From Flavobacteriales bacterium (GTDB lineage: Bacteria; Bacteroidota; Bacteroidia; Flavobacteriales_D; Crocinitomicaceae): a DNA stretch of 64,000 bases. The position numbers and the translations under genes were made by a program. Below the pieces are notes generated by a model, which had not been told where the DNA came from, searched no databases, and saw only the letters and a program-made list of their open reading frames with translations. This document shows positions 21,512-47,340 of this stretch, one piece after another (positions within the stretch are counted from its first letter, which is position 1; the number at the start of each line of letters is the position of its first letter). Location of the stretch: NCBI GenBank assembly GCA_947470515.1, contig CANITF010000002.1, positions 62,001 through 126,000 on the forward strand, given 5' to 3'.

Positions 21512-21619
21512 TTGCCACAGATGCACAGATTATTGTTTGAATTAATATTTAGTCAATTTAGAAGTAAGAACAACTAGTCAAACCACTTATTGAGTATAGA
21601 AATCAGTGAATCTGTGGCG
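21512..21619. repeat. Degenerate inverted repeat of CACAGATGCACAGAT type
   Basis: GCCACAGATGCACAGATT (21514-21531) reappears in reverse orientation as AATCAGTGAATCTGTGGC (21601-21618), with about four mismatches. The pair brackets 70 bases without a gene. It sits in the 303-base gap between the ALDH7 and lipoprotein genes; the rest of that gap holds only their promoters. Short CACAG/CACATAG-type repeats also surround the GxxExxY gene at 43 kb, so this may be a remnant of a similar unit. Confidence 0.45.
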
Positions 21620-39500: not shown

Positions 39501-39941
39501 TCAGATACTGCCTTTTTCAAAGCATTAGAAAATGTTCAAGGAGAAGAATGTGATCAGTTGATTATAAGTTTAGGATACGGGAAAAATGAAAACGGCGAAT
39601 TTCACATGCGTTTTGGTCCTTTGAATACTAAAAATGGATCTAAACGATTGAATGTATTGTTAACGAGAGCGCGTAAGAAAATAGAGTTCTTTTCTTCCGT
39701 AAAAGGGAGCGATTTCAAAATTAGCAGTAATGAAGCAATTGATTTATTACGCTTGTATTTATTACAATTAGAATCAGTTTCCAACGAAGTAATTCCCCAT
39801 CAATTCCCTTATTCTTTGTCGCCAAGTATAAACGGAAATTCCTTAGCATTCGATTCAATTTATACAAAAATTCAGAATGCCAACGAATTGGTAACGTTGG
39901 TTAACGTAATGGAAAACAGGGGTTGGAAAGTTAGTTTTTAG
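36558..39941 (+). CDS. Large SF1 helicase (UPF1/DUF4011-like)
   Basis: The 1127-residue protein has Walker A 'QGPPGTGKSQV' near residue 241 and Walker B with motif III 'FDVAIFDEASQIPLQNALGA...VVAGDHQQMGP' near 815. Motif IV-like 'LKHHYRSEHPELLRFSN' and motif VI 'SKRLNVLLTRARKKIEFFSS' follow. About 560 residues, rich in coiled-coil-like sequence, separate Walker A from Walker B, as in DUF4011-type helicases. Such proteins often end in a Vsr- or REase-like nuclease domain; here only about 65 residues follow motif VI. Start is probably GTG 36558, with a GTG at 36585 as an alternative. The 3' end overlaps the convergent polA by 4 bp. The role, DNA repair or defence, is unknown. Confidence 0.8.
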   Translation: MKSFSNFSTVSESVKHRIIQLLQDVSQFNTNDVLVNIEHSSLLPILDLSKFNQTQDYLPFKSIVSSAKKTEKEQGIFPLCISQGIIEWEYKQSVVRTPLFLNPVEIELKKVDNTIRFSLDEDLSFINPFLINRLQREFELKLPTEILTLEQLIDFLENNNFKNIQSDDHYLGNFHHHRFEIIKELEELRNEVPNAAISNLFGDESSDESYQIKLNSNLLFPADTDQYAVFETVEKEHTVIQGPPGTGKSQVLSNLIAKLLLDNKSALVISEKRVALEVLQKKLGQFNLGHLCFIATSETISKDVLNSLKDSWTRLEKFDLKSTSNLQLSEQYIAQLQMQLDLLNQKELIGGISYSQFHELAKERDFESSNFSSDLPSLDLWLEAKNNVSTFFKEGINTFISRISFGVIKQDSFKQFDQSIHFWLNELIKLKGQFQIETWLDLQKAMKKAAICQSFDNPSFRRHHAILTPESKEQKKFLKLRKKYMQLQILQSNLDFEKSNWKIFPSLSETENFLNLSKETGFFGKLKFKKSWSTVSKTSVNQAEINLYKWKQFLVNSEDISQVKIELCEIGIDDVQTELELIFQQIHFYTASDREEWMQIPTALQKIYANTNHALNQLYSQLKLNFNWDDEINIQLFLEGIKSNFGLILQYQNSINEINESCLRNMKNYLTFEQMEAAVLKSNWTKFTAQFPVFSKFTTADLLNKCHTIISEQEKEAIGTGQEIVLNQHKHFQYYHKILQTASTKLNSEEKALKATLKKGKAILVKEFAKTKNFPSLRELFASEARIWIQLFKPIWLSNPTQIAKCFPMQNQLFDVAIFDEASQIPLQNALGAIQRSKRIVVAGDHQQMGPSSFFKAQSEETIDLLHQASFYWKNVGLKHHYRSEHPELLRFSNYHFYNNELITFPSFKQEKTPVNWHFSENGIFDERKNEIEAKAVALYIEKVIESKEMIGIVAFSETQLAEIYTQLSPQTKDKLEVRLDSDTAFFKALENVQGEECDQLIISLGYGKNENGEFHMRFGPLNTKNGSKRLNVLLTRARKKIEFFSSVKGSDFKISSNEAIDLLRLYLLQLESVSNEVIPHQFPYSLSPSINGNSLAFDSIYTKIQNANELVTLVNVMENRGWKVSF

Positions 39942-42763
39942 TGTGCGTCTAACCAATTCTCGCCCATTCCAACTTCAACTTCCATTGGAACAACTAAATC
40001 AACAGCAGACTCCATAGCTTCTTTGATGAGCTTTTTCATCACATCAATTTCAGATTTTTCAACATCAAAGACCAATTCATCATGCACTTGTAAAATCATT
40101 TTAGATTTTACGTTTTGCTTTTTCATCGCATTATAAACAGAAATCATTGCCATTTTAATGACATCAGCAGCTGAACCTTGTATCGGGGCATTGATAGCAT
40201 TTCGTTCTGCAAATCCACGAACCACTGCATTGGCGGAATTAATATCTGACAAATAACGTCTGCGTTGCATGATTGTTTCAACATACCCTTTTTCTCTAGC
40301 CAATGCGATTGTGCTGTCCATGTATGTTTTAATCGTAGAATATTGCTCGAAATAGCTATCAATAATTGATTTTGCTTCTGTTCTAGAAATATTCAAATTT
40401 TGAGATAATCCAAAGGCTGATTGACCATAAATTATTCCAAAATTAACGGCTTTCGCAGCGCTACGTTGTTCACGAGTAACCTCATCAATTGGAACATGAA
40501 ATACTTTTGAAGCCGTTGCAATGTGAATATCTTGACCACTTTTAAACGCTTCAATCATATTTTTATCACCACTCAAAGCAGCAATTATTCGCAATTCAAT
40601 TTGAGAATAATCTGCTGCCATCAAAGTAAAATCTTCACTACGAGCAATAAATGCTTTACGTATTTCTCTTCCTTTTTCTGTGCGAATAGGAATGTTTTGA
40701 AGGTTAGGATTATTTGAACTTAAACGACCAGTTGACGTAACAGTTTGCATGAAATTCGTATGAATTCTTCCGTCAATTTTATCTGTTAACAAAGGTAACG
40801 GATCTACATACGTGCTTTTCAATTTTCTCAATTGACGGTACTCCAAAATCATTGGGATAATTGGATGATCTTTTTCATGCTTTTGAAGAATATCTTCGCC
40901 CGTTGCATATTGACCAGTTTTTGTCTTTTTTGCTTTAGCAGAAATTTTCAGATGGTCAAAAAGAACCTCGCCCAATTGTTTTGGAGAATCCAAATTAAAT
41001 GGCACTCCTGCTGCTTCTTTTATCTTCGTTTCTAAATCGAGCAATGTAATTTCTAATTGCTTTGAATATTCTTGTAATCCTTGAACATCAATTGCAATTC
41101 CTTCTTGTTCAATTGCTTTTAACACTTCGACCAAAGGCATTTCCATTCCATAAAACAACTCTTTCAAATGCTCCTTTTGAATTTCAGGTTCGAATAATTG
41201 TTTTAATTGAAACGTAATATCTGCATCTTCACAAGCATAATCAGAAATTTCTTCTGGTTTCAAATCACGCATATTTCCTTGCGATTTTCCCTTTTTTCCA
41301 ATTAACGCTTCAATAGAAACAGGCTTGTATTTTAGGTAAAATTCCGCTAAGAAATCCATGCTTTGCTTCGACTCCGGATTAATCAAATAATGCGCAATCA
41401 TTGTATCAAAAGTTGGACTTGCTACTTGAATTCCATAACGGTTCAAGACTTTTAAATCGTATTTAATATTGTGTGCAATTTTTTCAATCGTCGGTGAAGT
41501 GAAAAATGGATTGAATTCCTCTACAATCGCTTTTGCTTCTTCAAAATCAGCTGGAATTGCAACATAAAATGCTTCACGTTCTTTATAAGAAAAAGACATT
41601 CCCACTAAATCAGCATGTAATGCATCCAAATCAGTCGTTTCAGTATCGAAACACACTTGTTTTTGGTTCATTAAAATTTCTAACAATTCCTTTCTTTCGT
41701 CCGCCTTTGTTATTAAGTGATAAGAGGGTTTTTCAGTTGCGATCGTTTTATAATCAGCTGTTTCAGTTGGATTCTGTTCAACTATTAAACTTTGCATTCC
41801 AAACAAATCTAATTGATTTGAACCGTTGGAATTATTTTCATTGCTTGATGAAGGAGTTGACGTTAATTCAATATCTTCTCCAATAACCCTTCTCGCTAAA
41901 TTTCTAAATTCCAATTCTGTAAAAATGTCTTTTACCTTTTCGACATCCACATCACACATGACCAAATGATCTTCGTTGAATTCAACTTCTAAATCAATCG
42001 TAATTGTGGCAAGCATTTTTGAAACACGTCCTTGTTCCGCAAAATTTATAACGTTTTCTTGTTGTTTGCCTTTTAATTCATGAGCATGTTCAATAATTCC
42101 TTCTAAAGAACCATATTTCTGAATCAATAGTTTCGCAGTTTTCTCTCCAATTCCTGGAATTCCTGGGATATTATCAGAAGCATCACCCCAAAGACCAAGG
42201 ATATCAATTACTTGCAAAGGGTGTTCAATTTCAAATTTCTCACATACTTCTTTTACACCCATGATTTCAGGTGGATTACCACCTCTACCCGGTTTGAACA
42301 TGAAGATGTTTTCTGAAACCAGTTGACCGTAATCTTTATCTGGCGTCATCATATAAGTTGTATAACCTCTTTTTTCAGCAACTTTAGCCATAGCACCAAT
42401 CACGTCGTCTGCTTCGTGACCAGCCATTTCAATCATCGGGACATTGAATGCTTCAACAATTTTTTTTATTGGTAAAATCATTGAACGAATATCTTCAGGC
42501 ATTGCTTCACGCTGCCCTTTATATGCTTCAAATTGTTCAATTCTATGCGTTGAACCACCTGGAGGATCAAAAACAACAGCTAAATGCGTTGGTTTTTCAT
42601 TTTTTATCACATCGATTAAAACATTCGTAAATCCAAATGCTGCAGAAGTATTTTGACCTTTCGAATTTACACGAGGATTCTTCGCAAACGCAAAATAAGC
42701 ACGGTATATCAGTGCATAAGCGTCAAGAAGAAAAAGTTTTTTATCAATGTTCGGTGTAAGCAT
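39938..42763 (-). CDS. polA: DNA polymerase I
   Basis: The 941-residue protein carries all three PolA activities. The N-terminal 5'-3' exonuclease has 'LFLLDAYALIYRAYFAF', 'EADDVIGAMA' and 'GIPGIGEKTA'. The 3'-5' proofreading domain has the intact acidic motif 'CFDTETTDLDALHADLVGM' near residue 370. The polymerase domain has motif A 'MAADYSQIELRIIAALSGD', motif B 'RSAAKAVNFGIIYGQSAFGLS' and motif C 'LQVHDELVFDV'. Length is typical for Bacteroidota. It fills Okazaki gaps and acts in repair. The gene is monocistronic and starts beside the CACATAGG repeat region. Confidence 0.96.
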   Translation of the reverse strand: MLTPNIDKKLFLLDAYALIYRAYFAFAKNPRVNSKGQNTSAAFGFTNVLIDVIKNEKPTHLAVVFDPPGGSTHRIEQFEAYKGQREAMPEDIRSMILPIKKIVEAFNVPMIEMAGHEADDVIGAMAKVAEKRGYTTYMMTPDKDYGQLVSENIFMFKPGRGGNPPEIMGVKEVCEKFEIEHPLQVIDILGLWGDASDNIPGIPGIGEKTAKLLIQKYGSLEGIIEHAHELKGKQQENVINFAEQGRVSKMLATITIDLEVEFNEDHLVMCDVDVEKVKDIFTELEFRNLARRVIGEDIELTSTPSSSNENNSNGSNQLDLFGMQSLIVEQNPTETADYKTIATEKPSYHLITKADERKELLEILMNQKQVCFDTETTDLDALHADLVGMSFSYKEREAFYVAIPADFEEAKAIVEEFNPFFTSPTIEKIAHNIKYDLKVLNRYGIQVASPTFDTMIAHYLINPESKQSMDFLAEFYLKYKPVSIEALIGKKGKSQGNMRDLKPEEISDYACEDADITFQLKQLFEPEIQKEHLKELFYGMEMPLVEVLKAIEQEGIAIDVQGLQEYSKQLEITLLDLETKIKEAAGVPFNLDSPKQLGEVLFDHLKISAKAKKTKTGQYATGEDILQKHEKDHPIIPMILEYRQLRKLKSTYVDPLPLLTDKIDGRIHTNFMQTVTSTGRLSSNNPNLQNIPIRTEKGREIRKAFIARSEDFTLMAADYSQIELRIIAALSGDKNMIEAFKSGQDIHIATASKVFHVPIDEVTREQRSAAKAVNFGIIYGQSAFGLSQNLNISRTEAKSIIDSYFEQYSTIKTYMDSTIALAREKGYVETIMQRRRYLSDINSANAVVRGFAERNAINAPIQGSAADVIKMAMISVYNAMKKQNVKSKMILQVHDELVFDVEKSEIDVMKKLIKEAMESAVDLVVPMEVEVGMGENWLDAH

Positions 42764-42810: not shown

Positions 42811-43080
42811 TAACCACATAGGAACAAAGAGAACATAGTTGTTTTTTAAAAACACAATAGAAATAAAATGAAACACATAGGAACATAGGACACATAGTTT
42901 TTATTTAAAAACACAATAGAAATAAAATGAAACACATAGGAACAAATAAAACATAGTTGTTATTTAAAAACACAATAGAAATAAAATGAAACACATAGGA
43001 CACATAGGACACATAGTTATTTAAAAAAAGGAAAAGTCTAAATAGTTTTTTAACACCTAGGAACAAAGAGAATATAGATT
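42811..43080. repeat. Tandem ~59-bp repeat array (CACATAGGAACA units) upstream of the GxxExxY gene
   Basis: The blocks AACACAATAGAAATAAAATG start at about 42850, 42910 and 42969, so the period is 59-60 bases. Each is followed by AAACACATAGGAACATAGG-like sequence with small indels. A partial unit precedes them at 42813 and a degraded one (AACACCTAGGAACAAAGAG) follows at about 43052. The arrays are rich in short CATAG steps. The 370-base gap between polA and the GxxExxY gene contains nothing else. Confidence 0.85.
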
Positions 43081-43133
43081 TTGAGATTGCATTTTTAAAA
43101 TAATTGTGTTAACTTCAAGTAAATTAAAATTTT

Positions 43134-43550
43134 ATGGTGTTTTATACAAAGACAGATATTAATGAATTAACTTATCAAATTTTAGGAGCATCGATGGAGG
43201 TGCATAAATCTCTGGGTCCTGGCTTACTTGAAAGTGTTTATCATAAATGTCTTAAACACGAATTAGAACTCCGAAAAATCATGTTTGAATCAGAATTCAA
43301 TGTTCCTGTTTATTACAAAGGAGAAACACTAAATACAGATTTAAAGTGTGATTTACTGATTGAAAATAGAATTGTTATTGAACTCAAATCAGTTGAGAAA
43401 ATTCATCCGATACATGAAGCACAACTTCTAACATATATGAAATTGCTAGAAATCCCAAAAGGGATATTAATAAATTTCAATTGCACAAATGTTTTTAAGG
43501 ATGGACAAAAGACTTTTGTTAATCATCTTTTCAATGAATTAGATGATTGA
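43134..43550 (+). CDS. GxxExxY family protein (PD-(D/E)XK-like)
   Basis: The 138-residue protein shows the defining motif GPGLLESVYH, with Gly30, Glu33 and Tyr36. A nuclease-like core follows: Asp72 in 'KCDLLIEN', then Glu82 and Lys84 in 'IVIELKSV', then Gln96 in 'HEAQLLTYMKLL'. This D-ExK-Q order is the PD-(D/E)XK pattern, and the family is regarded as nuclease-related, but its biological role is not established. It stands alone, flanked on the left by direct and on the right by inverted CACATAGG repeats. The flanking DNA is unlike the rest of the window, hinting at a mobile or repeat-linked unit. Confidence 0.88.
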   Translation: MVFYTKTDINELTYQILGASMEVHKSLGPGLLESVYHKCLKHELELRKIMFESEFNVPVYYKGETLNTDLKCDLLIENRIVIELKSVEKIHPIHEAQLLTYMKLLEIPKGILINFNCTNVFKDGQKTFVNHLFNELDD

Positions 43551-43592
43551 AACATATAGTATTCTCTAAGTGCTTTAGTGCCGAATAAAATA

Positions 43593-43760
43593 TTAACCAC
43601 ATAGGAACATAGAAAACATAGGATTGACAAGGTGAAAAAAAATCAATCAGAGATGAATGTCAGTAAAACATCTATGTGCCTATGTGTTTCAAAATTTGCA
43701 CTAATACTCTGAAACATTTGGATCAACCGACTATGTGACCTATGTGTCTATGTGTTTCAA
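43593..43760. repeat. Direct and inverted CACATAGG repeats downstream of the GxxExxY gene
   Basis: One direct copy, TTAACCACATAGGAACATAG, is at 43593-43612. Two inverted copies follow: ATCTATGTGCCTATGTGTTT at about 43670-43689, and CTATGTGACCTATGTGTCTA at 43731-43750 followed by TGTGTTTC. The inverted copies mirror the left-hand array, so the GxxExxY gene lies between opposite repeat orientations. The stretch up to the ileS stop contains no other gene. Confidence 0.8.
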
Positions 43761-43774
43761 AAACCTCCCAATCT

Positions 43775-46700
43775 CTATTGTTTCACAAGTCCAATTTTAG
43801 AATCACCTTCTAACTCTAAATCAGTTAATAAAGCATCCGTTCCAAGATTCGCAAAAAGTATTTCATTTGCCAAAACTTCATTGCACACATATTCATGATT
43901 TGCTTGAATCGCATGCTGAATAAATTCAGTTGTATCAACAGTTAACACAATACGATCTGTTACATCTAAACCTGAATCTTTTCTTAAATTTTGAACCCTA
44001 TTGATCAATTCACGAGCAATTCCTTCCGCTTTTAATTGCTCAGAAATTGTAATATCCAACGCGACAGTTAAACCACCTTCTGTAGCAACTAGCCATCCTG
44101 GAATATCTTGCGCTGCAATTTCGAAATCAGCTAAATCCAACGCAATAACTTCTCCGTCAATTTCTCCTTTCCAACCGTTATTCTCTTCCACTTTTGAAAT
44201 ATCTTCGCTTGTCATTTGACCAACCATAGCCGCAATTGATTTCATTTGCTTGCCATATTTCGGTCCTATTGTTTTGAAATTTGCTTTGATACTTTTCACT
44301 AAAACACTGTTGTCTTCATCCAATAATTCCAATTCTTTGACATTGACTTCTGATAAAATCAAATCCTTTACGTGCATGATGTTATCTGAAAACGTTTTAT
44401 TCAAAGTAGGAACCATTATTTTTTGTAACGGCTGTCTAACTCTGATTTTTTCTTTCTTGCGTAATCCCAATACCAATGATGACGTTCGCTGTGCAATCTC
44501 CATTTGAGCTTCTAACTCTTCGTTGATAAATGCCTTGTTCACTTTTGGGAAATCAACTAAATGCACAGATGAAACGGCGAATCTTTTACTCACAGAATTC
44601 AAATCCGAAAATAATTGATCCATAAAGAAAGGTGCAATTGGAGATCCTAAAATTGAAACCGTTTCTAAACAGGTATACAATGTTTGATAGGCTGACAATT
44701 TATCTTTTGAATCGTCACTTTTCCAGAAACGACGACGACATAATCTCACATACCAATTAGATAACTGATCACTTACAAAATCTTGAATTAATCGACCCGC
44801 CTTAGTTGGCTCGTATTCATCGAAAGATCCATCAACTTCTTGAATCAAAGAATGTAATTTGGAAAGTACCCAACGGTCAATTTCTGGTCGCTCGTTTAAC
44901 GGAATATCTTGAGCAGAATAATCAAATCCATCAATATTTGCGTACAAAGTGAAGAACGAATACGTATTGTACAAAGTTCCGAAGAATTTACGTTGAACTT
45001 CCGTTATTCCGTCTAAATCAAATTTTAAATTATCCCAAGGTTGCGCATTGGTAATCATATACCAACGAGCAGCATCAGCGCCATACGTTTCTAAGGTTGA
45101 AAATGGATCAATTGCATTGCCCAAACGTTTAGACATTTTCTGACCATTTTTATCTAAAACTAAACCATTAGAAACAACATTTTTATATGCCACAGAATCA
45201 AAAACCATCGTCGCAATTGCATGCAATGTATAGAACCAACCTCTTGTTTGATCTACCCCTTCTGCAATGAAATCACCAGGATAACCTTCGTGATTATCAA
45301 TCAAACTTTTGTTTTCAAATGGATAATGCCACTGCGCATAAGGCATTGCGCCTGAATCAAACCAAACATCAATCAAATCTGATTCACGCTTCATCGGTTT
45401 TCCTGTTGGAGAAACCAAAACAATTTGATCTACATAGTTTTTATGCAAATCAATTTTTGCATAATTTTCTTTTGACATGTCCGTTGCATCAAAGTCCGCT
45501 ATAGGATTTGAAGTCATTAAACCAGCAGAAATTGCTTTATCACATTCATTTTTCAGTTGACCCGCAGATGAAATACAAATGCGCTCATCACCTTCTTCTG
45601 TCGACCAAATTGGAATTGGAATTCCCCAATAACGTGAACGAGAAAGGTTCCAATCATTTACATTTTCCAACCATTTCCCGAAACGTCCAGAGCCAGTTGA
45701 TTCTGGTTTCCAATTGATGGTATTGTTCAATTGCATCATGCGTTCTTTAACATCAGTTACTTTGATGAACCAAGAATCCAACGGATAATACAATACTGGT
45801 TTGTCCGTTCTCCAACAATGCGGATAACTGTGGACATATTTCTCAACCTTAAAGGCTTTGTTTTCTGTTTTTAATTGAATTGCAATTTGAACATCAGCTG
45901 ATCTTTCTGGTGCTTGACCGTCGTCATAATATTCATTTTTGACATACATTCCGGCATAATCTCCCATTTCTGGTCTGAATTTCCCTTGAAGATCAACAAG
46001 TGGAACCAAATTTCCTTTATCGTCAATCACAAGTAATCCTGGCACACCAGCATCTTTTGCAACACGTGCATCATCTGCACCAAACGTTGGGGCGATATGC
46101 ACAATTCCTGTTCCATCTTCTGTTGTTACAAAATCACCACCAATCACTTTAAATGCATTTTCAGGATTTTCGGCAGGTAAAGCAAATGGCAATAGTTGTT
46201 CGTAAGAGATTCCGATCAAGTCTTTTCCTAAACATTCTCCAGCAATGAAATATGGGATAGTTTTATCTCCAGAATTAAAATTTGTTAATTCACTTGCGGT
46301 TTCAACGTTTTGAAATCCTTTGGCAAACTGATATCCAACAAGATTCTTTGCAAGAATTACATTGATGGGTTCAAACGTATATTGGTTAAAAGATTGAACT
46401 AAAACGTATTCTATTTTTGGTCCAACGCACAATGCGGTATTAGAAGACAACGTCCAAGGTGTGGTTGTCCATGCCAAAAAATGTAGGTTCAGGTCGCGAC
46501 CTGACCCTACATTTTTGGCAAACGGTAATTTTTCGCCATCAACAATTTTAAACTGCGCAACAACTGTCGTATCAGTTACATCTCTGTAACAACCCGGTTG
46601 ATTCAATTCGTGTGACGACAATCCTGTTCCAGCTTTTGGCGAATACGGTTGAATTGTGTATCCTTTATACATGAGATTTTTCTCGTACAATTGACCCAAT

Positions 46701-47191
46701 AACCACCAAACTGATTCCATGTATTTTGGTTCATAGGTGATGTATGGATCTTCCATATCCACCCAATATCCCATTTTCAATGTAAGGTCATTCCAAATAT
46801 CTGTGTAACGCATTACTGCTTCTTTACACGCTTTGTTGTAATCTTCTACTGAAATTTTTGTTCCAATATCTTCTTTGGTGATTCCAAGTTCCTTTTCAAC
46901 CCCTAATTCAACAGGTAAACCATGTGTATCCCAACCAGCTTTCCGTTTAACTTGAAAACCTTTTAATGTTTTGTAGCGACAAAAAATATCTTTGATAGCG
47001 CGTCCCATAACGTGGTGAATACCAGGTAAACCATTCGCTGATGGCGGTCCTTCAAAGAAAATAAAAGGCGTTTGACCTTCACGTGTAGCAATAGATTGCT
47101 CGAAAACCTTCTCGTTCTGCCATTTTTCTAACACTGTTTTCGCCACGTTTGGCAAATTCAACCCTTTGTATTCTGGATAATTCTTCGTCAT
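43775..47191 (-). CDS. ileS: Isoleucyl-tRNA synthetase
   Basis: The 1138-residue class I synthetase charges tRNA-Ile. Start is taken at ATG 47191 (MTKNYPEYKG); 23 further upstream codons lack support. The HIGH-type motif is 'GLPGIHHVMG' (His59-His60). The editing-domain threonine-rich motif 'LAWTTTPWTLSSNTAL' lies near residue 240. 'DVWFDSGAMPYAQWHYP' and KMSKR ('NGQKMSKRLGNA') near residue 684 complete the catalytic site. The long C-terminal domain without zinc cysteines fits the eukaryote-like type 2 IleS found in many Bacteroidota. An in-frame palindromic insertion lies at about residues 224-240, just before the editing motif. Confidence 0.95.
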   Translation of the reverse strand: MTKNYPEYKGLNLPNVAKTVLEKWQNEKVFEQSIATREGQTPFIFFEGPPSANGLPGIHHVMGRAIKDIFCRYKTLKGFQVKRKAGWDTHGLPVELGVEKELGITKEDIGTKISVEDYNKACKEAVMRYTDIWNDLTLKMGYWVDMEDPYITYEPKYMESVWWLLGQLYEKNLMYKGYTIQPYSPKAGTGLSSHELNQPGCYRDVTDTTVVAQFKIVDGEKLPFAKNVGSGRDLNLHFLAWTTTPWTLSSNTALCVGPKIEYVLVQSFNQYTFEPINVILAKNLVGYQFAKGFQNVETASELTNFNSGDKTIPYFIAGECLGKDLIGISYEQLLPFALPAENPENAFKVIGGDFVTTEDGTGIVHIAPTFGADDARVAKDAGVPGLLVIDDKGNLVPLVDLQGKFRPEMGDYAGMYVKNEYYDDGQAPERSADVQIAIQLKTENKAFKVEKYVHSYPHCWRTDKPVLYYPLDSWFIKVTDVKERMMQLNNTINWKPESTGSGRFGKWLENVNDWNLSRSRYWGIPIPIWSTEEGDERICISSAGQLKNECDKAISAGLMTSNPIADFDATDMSKENYAKIDLHKNYVDQIVLVSPTGKPMKRESDLIDVWFDSGAMPYAQWHYPFENKSLIDNHEGYPGDFIAEGVDQTRGWFYTLHAIATMVFDSVAYKNVVSNGLVLDKNGQKMSKRLGNAIDPFSTLETYGADAARWYMITNAQPWDNLKFDLDGITEVQRKFFGTLYNTYSFFTLYANIDGFDYSAQDIPLNERPEIDRWVLSKLHSLIQEVDGSFDEYEPTKAGRLIQDFVSDQLSNWYVRLCRRRFWKSDDSKDKLSAYQTLYTCLETVSILGSPIAPFFMDQLFSDLNSVSKRFAVSSVHLVDFPKVNKAFINEELEAQMEIAQRTSSLVLGLRKKEKIRVRQPLQKIMVPTLNKTFSDNIMHVKDLILSEVNVKELELLDEDNSVLVKSIKANFKTIGPKYGKQMKSIAAMVGQMTSEDISKVEENNGWKGEIDGEVIALDLADFEIAAQDIPGWLVATEGGLTVALDITISEQLKAEGIARELINRVQNLRKDSGLDVTDRIVLTVDTTEFIQHAIQANHEYVCNEVLANEILFANLGTDALLTDLELEGDSKIGLVKQ
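46472..46520. repeat. REP-like palindrome inserted in frame within ileS
   Basis: Around the centre CGCG (46495-46498), the left arm TGTAGGTTCAGGTCGC and the right arm GCGACCTGACCCTACA are almost complementary. They are flanked by TGCCAAAAAA and TTTTTGGCA, which extend the symmetry to about 49 bases. On the coding strand it reads AKNVGSGRDLNLHF. The insert keeps the reading frame and is flanked by conserved ileS sequence. Confidence 0.85.
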
Positions 47192-47340
47192 TGTACCTTG
47201 AAAATATGAATGTGCGAAGATAGTAAATTTGGATGAAAGACGAAAGTCCAAGATGTCCAATAATTTCTTATATAAGTATTATATAAATGTCATTTGAAAT
47301 TCAATATTATTACCTTTGTTTTTGAATCAATCAAACCATC

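Follow-up and report, generated by a model that had tools for sequence, protein, structure and literature searches.

A GxxExxY nuclease-like gene bracketed by direct and inverted heptamer repeats between polA and ileS: a candidate nuclease-repeat pair

The analyzed window, a 64-kb stretch of a Flavobacteriales genome, contains a GxxExxY (PDDEXK_3) gene of 138 aa (43134-43550, plus strand) located between polA (39938-42763) and ileS (43775-47260), both of which are encoded on the minus strand. To the left of the gene lies a tandem array of 59-bp units on the plus strand (42812-43018), each unit carrying the pattern CACATAG-N-(C/A)ACATAG-NN-(C/A)ACATAG or a degenerate form of it; TRF delimits this array at 42815-43018, with 3.4 copies and 89% matches. 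A single degenerate heptamer triple (43054-43077, plus strand) adjoins the gene. To the right, a direct copy of the triple (43598-43621, plus strand) is followed by two inverted copies on the minus strand, one with two heptamers (43672-43691) and one with three (43730-43759), the latter being 90% complementary to 42869-42898. This arrangement, an CACATAGG array on the left and direct plus inverted copies on the right, had been described in an earlier note on this DNA, and its coordinates were confirmed. The further statement that no other gene lies between polA and ileS was borne out, save for a 53-aa frame that overlaps the array and is the sole other ORF of at least 50 aa in the interval. 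All 7 window matches to CACATAGGNACATAG (up to two mismatches) fall at the GxxExxY locus, as compared with a mean of 0.19 and a maximum of 2 matches in the shuffled window. Only chance-level Rfam matches were obtained for the locus (best E 0.14). The ileS gene was found in 24 congeneric genomes, in three of which it is adjacent to polA, and all three have the GxxExxY gene. In one more genome (G025) the ileS contig ends 161 bases after ileS, inside repeats, and the other 20 contain no polA within the stretch examined beside ileS.

The GxxExxY protein scores well above the cut-offs of both PF13366 (140.9 bits, cut-off 22) and TIGR04256 (145.5 bits, cut-off 35), the entries of which, as shown, give no function; across Pfam and NCBIfam, the only matches are to the PDDEXK_3/GxxExxY families and, weakly, to Cas4. 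In an alignment of 102 sequences, L27, G28, G30, E33, Y36, D73, K85, N114, and F115 are invariant, and E83 (90% or more), Q97, and Y101 are nearly so. The structure model built from these 102 sequences (pLDDT 96.7, pTM 0.90) replaced a single-sequence prediction that was useless (pLDDT 44.6). No PDB chain was found by sequence at E up to 10, and Foldseek returned no match at E ≤0.001 (best 4ic1, 1.4e-2), so that the fold link rests on the VIA list, with one match at Z ≥8. This best match is the Cas4 protein SSO0001 (PDB 4ic1; Z 9.3, rmsd 3.8, 99 residues), whereas the matches at Z <8 include restriction enzymes, Holliday junction resolvases, Cas4, and other PD-(D/E)XK enzymes, as well as some unrelated chains. 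The conserved D (D73) and (D/E)xK (E83-x-K85) catalytic residues by which the PD-(D/E)XK superfamily is recognized are present on the modeled fold. The GxxExxY protein is predicted to be a PD-(D/E)XK nuclease of the Cas4-like type, its active-site residues being conserved. The gene is under purifying selection, with dN/dS between 0.03 and 0.12 in ten pairs (12 were taken and two skipped for unequal length; three were near or past silent-site saturation).

The repeat is by no means restricted to the locus. In the whole genome (2.99 Mb, 58 contigs), CACATAGGNNCATAG is matched 50 times when up to one mismatch is allowed, as compared with 1 for the reversed control, and 45 of these matches lie away from the gene; CACATAGG is a dispersed, genome-wide repeat. 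At the 18 loci inspected, it occurs as single units or arrays of AAC-CACATAG-N-CACATAG-NN-CACATAG, and the dispersed units lie outside genes, as far as can be judged by eye. Among 84 distinct windows selected by the motif from loci of four genomes (up to two substitutions), the information is confined to approximately 32 bp. The first gap between the heptamers (one base) was fixed by the search pattern, and the second, which was left free, is two bases long in 99 of 99 cases, with overlapping loci kept in the counts, and no other gap from 0 to 6 was found. The consensus of the CACATAG triple shows, on inspection, no self-complementarity. A mobile unit of 59-60 bp, suggested by the period of the array and by an indel at one locus (L046), was considered and dropped, because the information falls to background beyond about 32 bp. 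Other repeats share these surroundings. In the CACATAG units of several loci (L193 against L192; L038, L043, L047, L053, and L026), a 24-bp TTCGACAAGCTCAG-type repeat occupies precisely the position between the first and second heptamers; at one site it is present in G025 and missing from G018. The intergenic regions of this genome (L037-L053) hold further short-period repeats, namely AATTACG, CTCATCA, TAAACTATCAG, and TTTTTAC.

The genome contains three GxxExxY genes, and the other two are flanked, by eye, by CCCGCAGA-type and TGATT-type repeats. A tie between GxxExxY genes and CACATAGG as such, which the earlier note had proposed, did not hold, given that it applies to one of these three genes and that 45 of the 50 CACATAGG matches lie elsewhere. 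The TGATT-type flanks of the third gene (L003/L036, G000:C3:115364), AACTGTGATTC...TTTGATTAGTTTGATTTT, are far from the CANNNAG form. Elsewhere in the same genome, a small GIY-YIG nuclease gene (L231, G000:C15:58103-58321) is bracketed by a hairpin repeat, CGTTCTCGATACG...CTACTCGAACTGACGG, and its inverse, and is perhaps a second nuclease-repeat pair.

Twenty-nine GxxExxY genes were found in 16 of the 26 congeneric genomes, and their flanks display, by eye, the heptamers CACAGAG, CGCAAAG, CACAAAG, CGCAGAG, CACGAAT, and CACAGAT. For a wider set, named genomes were scanned with a 16-sequence alignment, which matched at least 590 stretches, at least 575 of them relatives, and the best 80 were kept. 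Judging by record titles, these 80 represent Bacteroidota, Planctomycetes, Chloroflexota, Acidobacteria, Spirochaetota, Omnitrophota, several proteobacterial classes, Cyanobacteria, Verrucomicrobia, a Methanothrix archaeon, and others. Across the genes beyond the polA-ileS locus, the heptamers (CACAGAG, CACGAAG, CGCAGAG, CATTAAG, CACAGAT, etc.) are usually inverted across the gene, and many flanks of the wide set consist of ACC followed by two to three heptamers, which recur in inverted form beyond the stop codon. The right flank of L124, as well as G045 and G005, contains dispersed CACAGAG/CGCAGA units arranged as outward-facing hairpin pairs or as regular alternating arrays, in a BIME-like manner.

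The inverted arrangement was quantified as the left-right match score of 200-bp flanks. A score of at least 12 was reached by 47 of 76 wide loci vs. 5 of 157 control ORFs drawn from the same contigs, in support of the earlier suggestion that the inverted copies provide terminal-repeat-like ends. With 350-bp flanks, the respective numbers are 51/76 and 7/123. This test excludes four of the 80 loci, three because of interrupted frames (L085, L111, and L159) and L112 because of its short flank. About two-thirds of the wide-set genes (50/76) beat all 25 dinucleotide shuffles, and in the genus set 6 of 29 genes reach a score of 12 and 7 of 29 beat all shuffles. An ACC-heptamer is present on both sides at 44 of 77 loci (L112 being retained here) vs. 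8 of 77 when the flanks are reversed and 18 of 77 when the heptamers are sought in the opposite orientation. Recurrence of a 7-mer in at least 4 copies was observed for 15/29 genes vs. 4/60 controls in the genus, and for 42/76 vs. 23/161 in the wide set. It might be supposed that repeats and gene merely gather in permissive intergenic places with no functional tie, since several other repeat families occupy the same intergenic regions and relatedness inflates the copy-number tests described below. We regard this as highly improbable in view of the low rate at control ORFs, the gene-matched copy numbers, and the locus-specific pairing of left and right flanks: when the flanks of the wide and genus sets were pooled and mispaired, only 3.5% of 624 combinations reached a score of 12.

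The sequence of the repeat tends to follow the lineage of the gene. In the wide set, proteins whose flanks have the same repeat core are more alike than others (0.60 vs. 0.51; 43 loci, 0 of 2000 permutations), and the nearest-neighbor protein has the same repeat in 21 of 43 cases, 3.6 being expected; this analysis drew on the 54 loci with a clear core that are present in alignment A2. Gene lineages thus tend to have their own repeat sequence. Copy numbers point in the same direction: for each of four repeat families, the genome with the most copies among the 26 congeneric ones also has the gene type that belongs to that family, and genomes with the gene contain between 4 and 77 hits. The three genomes with the CACATAG gene type contain 50, 46, and 77 copies of this repeat, and 22 others contain 0-5; the remaining one, G025, has 52 CACATAG and 17 CGCAGA copies and no detected GxxExxY gene, its ileS contig ending inside repeats as noted above. 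CACGAAT-type copies are restricted to the three genomes with that gene type (4, 7, and 13). For CCCGC..CGCAGA, the four genomes with the gene contain 66, 25, 14, and 5 copies, and those without it contain 17 (G025), 5 (G013), or 0-2. For CACAGATG, there are 58 and 7 copies in the two genomes with the gene, 41, 14, 13, and 9 in four genomes without a detected matching gene, and 0 in the other 20.

Asymptotic p-values are too small for so few genomes, and therefore exact one-sided rank p-values were used; ignoring relatedness, these amount to 0.0015 (4/2600) for CACATAG, 0.0004 (1/2600) for CACGAAT, 0.0003 (5/14950) for CCCGC..CGCAGA, and 0.028 (9/325) for CACAGATG. A joint permutation over the four families, with related genomes treated as independent, reached the observed value in 0 of 20000 cases, and upon swapping of family labels the observed rank sum was reached in 2 of 24 arrangements, the true one included. 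Since G000 (the genome studied here), G002, G018, and G025 are close to one another, as are the three CACGAAT genomes G003, G008, and G024, there are few independent contrasts, and each repeat family rests on one or two at the level of clades. In 40 of the 80 wide genomes, hand-picked before counting, CACAGAG copies are more common where the gene flank has CACAGAG (median 4.5, n = 18) than where it does not (median 0, n = 22; p 7.5e-4), with at least five copies in 9/18 vs. 5/22 genomes. The abundance of the cognate repeat tends to go with the presence of the gene, clearly for CACATAG and CACGAAT, with G025 and CACAGATG as exceptions and over a small number of independent clades. A small PD-(D/E)XK nuclease with a lineage-variable partner repeat would also suit a defense or toxin-like system, in which the nuclease polices or exploits the repeats. 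There is little to recommend this reading, as the repeats are not purged but build up in the presence of the gene, and no relative was found at E 1e-5 among 50,697 phage records; at the same threshold, 8 of 72,556 plasmid records hold one.

Evidence of movement comes from comparisons between related genomes. The gene at L054 is 89.6% identical to that of L055, located at another site, and only 67-69% identical to L059-L061 at its own site. Likewise, L058 shares 70-71% identity with L055 and L056, which occupy the same site as it does, and 76-79% with L059, L060, L061, and L063, with which it has no neighbor in common save for a 48-aa match to L061. Gene types have thus been exchanged between two sites, and the repeats, by eye, track the type and not the site. 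L072 and L077 have the same two neighbors, with the cassette inverted between them. The cassette L079 of G018 spans 500 bp with perfect 21-bp terminal inverted repeats; between aligned flanks, its site measures 637 bp in G018 vs. 65 bp in G000. Of the 26 genomes, 23 have an identifiable copy of the downstream gene, and the site is empty in all seven relatives inspected (G000, G002, G025, G023, G007, G005, and G013). The spacer is too diverged to yield clean junctions, so that the insertion is not base-clean. The presence or absence of this comparable unit at an orthologous site supports the earlier proposal that gene and repeats form one unit. Since many genes occupy the same sites across species, movement is rare.

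Smaller units vary as well. Eight of 12 queried single-unit sites could be aligned. Units are missing or fewer in at least one relative at L046, L037, and L039, although a deletion between short repeats might account for the L046 indel; those of L048, L049, L050, and L051 are common to relatives, and the alignment of L052 is poor. The CACAGAT family comprises 45 inverted mini-units of 40-147 bp in five genomes, some of them orthologous, which carry the same ends as the L079 cassette and mostly dissimilar interiors, as judged by eye. Almost all are bounded by G...C (44/45). The outer base is the same on both sides in 31/45 and two bases are the same in 10/45, which gives no clear sign of a target-site duplication of at least 2 bp. 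As the loci were chosen via the repeat pattern, no empty site for a mini-unit was found among those examined. For eight orthologous mini-unit pairs selected in this way, and thus subject to its bias, identical positions number 269/272 in the ends, 557/646 internally, and 1706/1906 in the flanks; the higher identity of the ends was for this reason set aside as evidence. One mini-unit of this family, GCCACAGATGCACAGATTA...AATCTGTGGC, is located in the window itself (21514-21618), and the L079 nuclease gene, present in G018, was undetected in this genome.

The patterns of variation bear on two other explanations. The repeats might be binding sites of a host-tamed protein, serving chromosome organization or regulation or its own expression, with their spread being incidental. 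The fixed spacing of the heptamers, the strong purifying selection, the sites common to several species, and the intergenic location of dispersed units at the sites inspected would all agree with such a role, which we nevertheless consider improbable, because units and arrays are present or absent between close relatives, the inverted mini-units have mostly dissimilar interiors, and the nuclease residues are conserved. Alternatively, the inverted repeats could act at the RNA level, forming a long stem at the gene, with the transcript being processed by the GxxExxY protein or by a host RNase; processing of stem transcripts is known for the intervening sequences of 23S rRNA. Five mini-units chosen from the 45 and folded as single-stranded DNA do give strong hairpins (z from -3.8 to -7.6). 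Many units, however, are single or in direct arrays and unable to form a stem, and the closest fold is that of a DNA nuclease, all of which makes an RNA-based system very unlikely.

On balance, we favor the explanation that the locus is one copy of a nuclease-repeat pair, in which the nuclease recognizes and spreads its cognate repeat. With inverted copies of the repeat on either side of the gene and further copies scattered through the genome, the two have the appearance of a mobile pair. The GxxExxY nuclease would recognize the heptamer-repeat unit that brackets its own gene and cut or nick at it; repair or replication would then carry copies of the repeat units, and on occasion of the complete cassette, into other intergenic positions. 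The non-autonomous progeny would comprise the dispersed single units, the arrays, and the inverted mini-units, and gene lineages would tend to retain their own repeat sequence. We infer that the GxxExxY protein carries out the recognition, cleavage, and transposition of the repeats, and that it is this protein, and not another factor, that spreads them. A nuclease that lacks a strand-transfer domain would not readily be taken for a transposase. Since no known strand-transfer enzyme is encoded in the cassette and some genomes have repeats without a detected gene, an unrelated transposase encoded elsewhere might mobilize the inverted repeats, the GxxExxY gene being a passenger or an accessory nuclease. 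The involvement of such a third party is, in our estimation, unlikely: members of the family are bracketed at 47 of 76 loci, which come from many phyla and differ in their repeat sequences, the repeat type goes with the gene lineage, and, with repeat-to-gene distances not exceeding about 250 bp, a further enzyme would hardly fit.

A broader version of the nuclease-repeat reading, which we put forward tentatively and with less confidence, is that GxxExxY cassettes constitute a very widespread and hitherto undescribed class of minimal mobile elements, in which the nuclease alone mobilizes and seeds REP- or MITE-like repeats across bacteria. Such an element would measure about 0.5 kb and consist of one Cas4-like nuclease of 125-140 aa and terminal inverted repeats of two to three heptamers. 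If true, the nuclease-repeat reading would assign a function to a small and widespread protein and account for the origin of the scattered CACAGAG/CACGAAG/CATTAAG-type repeats of many genomes. The specificity code would be directly testable, as gene lineages combine a single small protein with a single short repeat. In the literature covered, which lies outside most subscription journals and preprints, no description of a GxxExxY-repeat pairing was found. The passages found on GxxExxY or PF13366 treat neither function nor repeats; no papers match the long repeat strings, and those listed for shorter strings look unrelated by title. The repeat partnership of the GxxExxY family is what the present analysis adds.

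Among known systems, Cas4 is the closest to the protein itself. Its active site has the layout D...ExK...QxxxY, and the GxxExxY protein resembles it both in this layout and as the best fold match. Cas4 also possesses four conserved cysteines that bind an Fe-S cluster; the GxxExxY protein differs in lacking conserved Fe-S cysteines, as there are none among the invariant or nearly invariant columns of the 102 sequences. With insertion sequences and MITEs, the cassettes have in common terminal inverted repeats, which in L079 are perfect over 21 bp, the occurrence of short units that end in the same way, and presence or absence at one site. They differ from them in that the unit holds one gene, matching nuclease families, and has neither a known transposase domain nor a clear target-site duplication of at least 2 bp; the mostly dissimilar interiors of the mini-units, as judged by eye, are a further difference.

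The likeness to the REP-RAYT system is of another kind. Its marks are a gene between two inverted repeats, co-evolution of gene and repeat, and a repeat abundance tied to the gene (PMC2817692). All of them have full or partial counterparts here: the gene lies between two inverted repeats, the repeats are dispersed in intergenic regions, their abundance tends to go with the gene, here with exceptions, and repeat and gene lineages go together. The inverted doublets that form hairpins are, in turn, similar to REPINs as these are described in PMC3116915. A single REP, however, is an imperfect palindrome, whereas the GxxExxY unit is a row of heptamers and not itself a palindrome. RAYTs are HuH/Y1 tyrosine enzymes, whereas the GxxExxY protein is a predicted PD-(D/E)XK nuclease in which Pfam and NCBIfam detect no HuH/Y1 tyrosine transposase domain. 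The enzymes being unrelated, the GxxExxY protein is not a RAYT, yet it would work like one, and repeat-and-nuclease partnerships would then have arisen from an enzyme unrelated to RAYTs.
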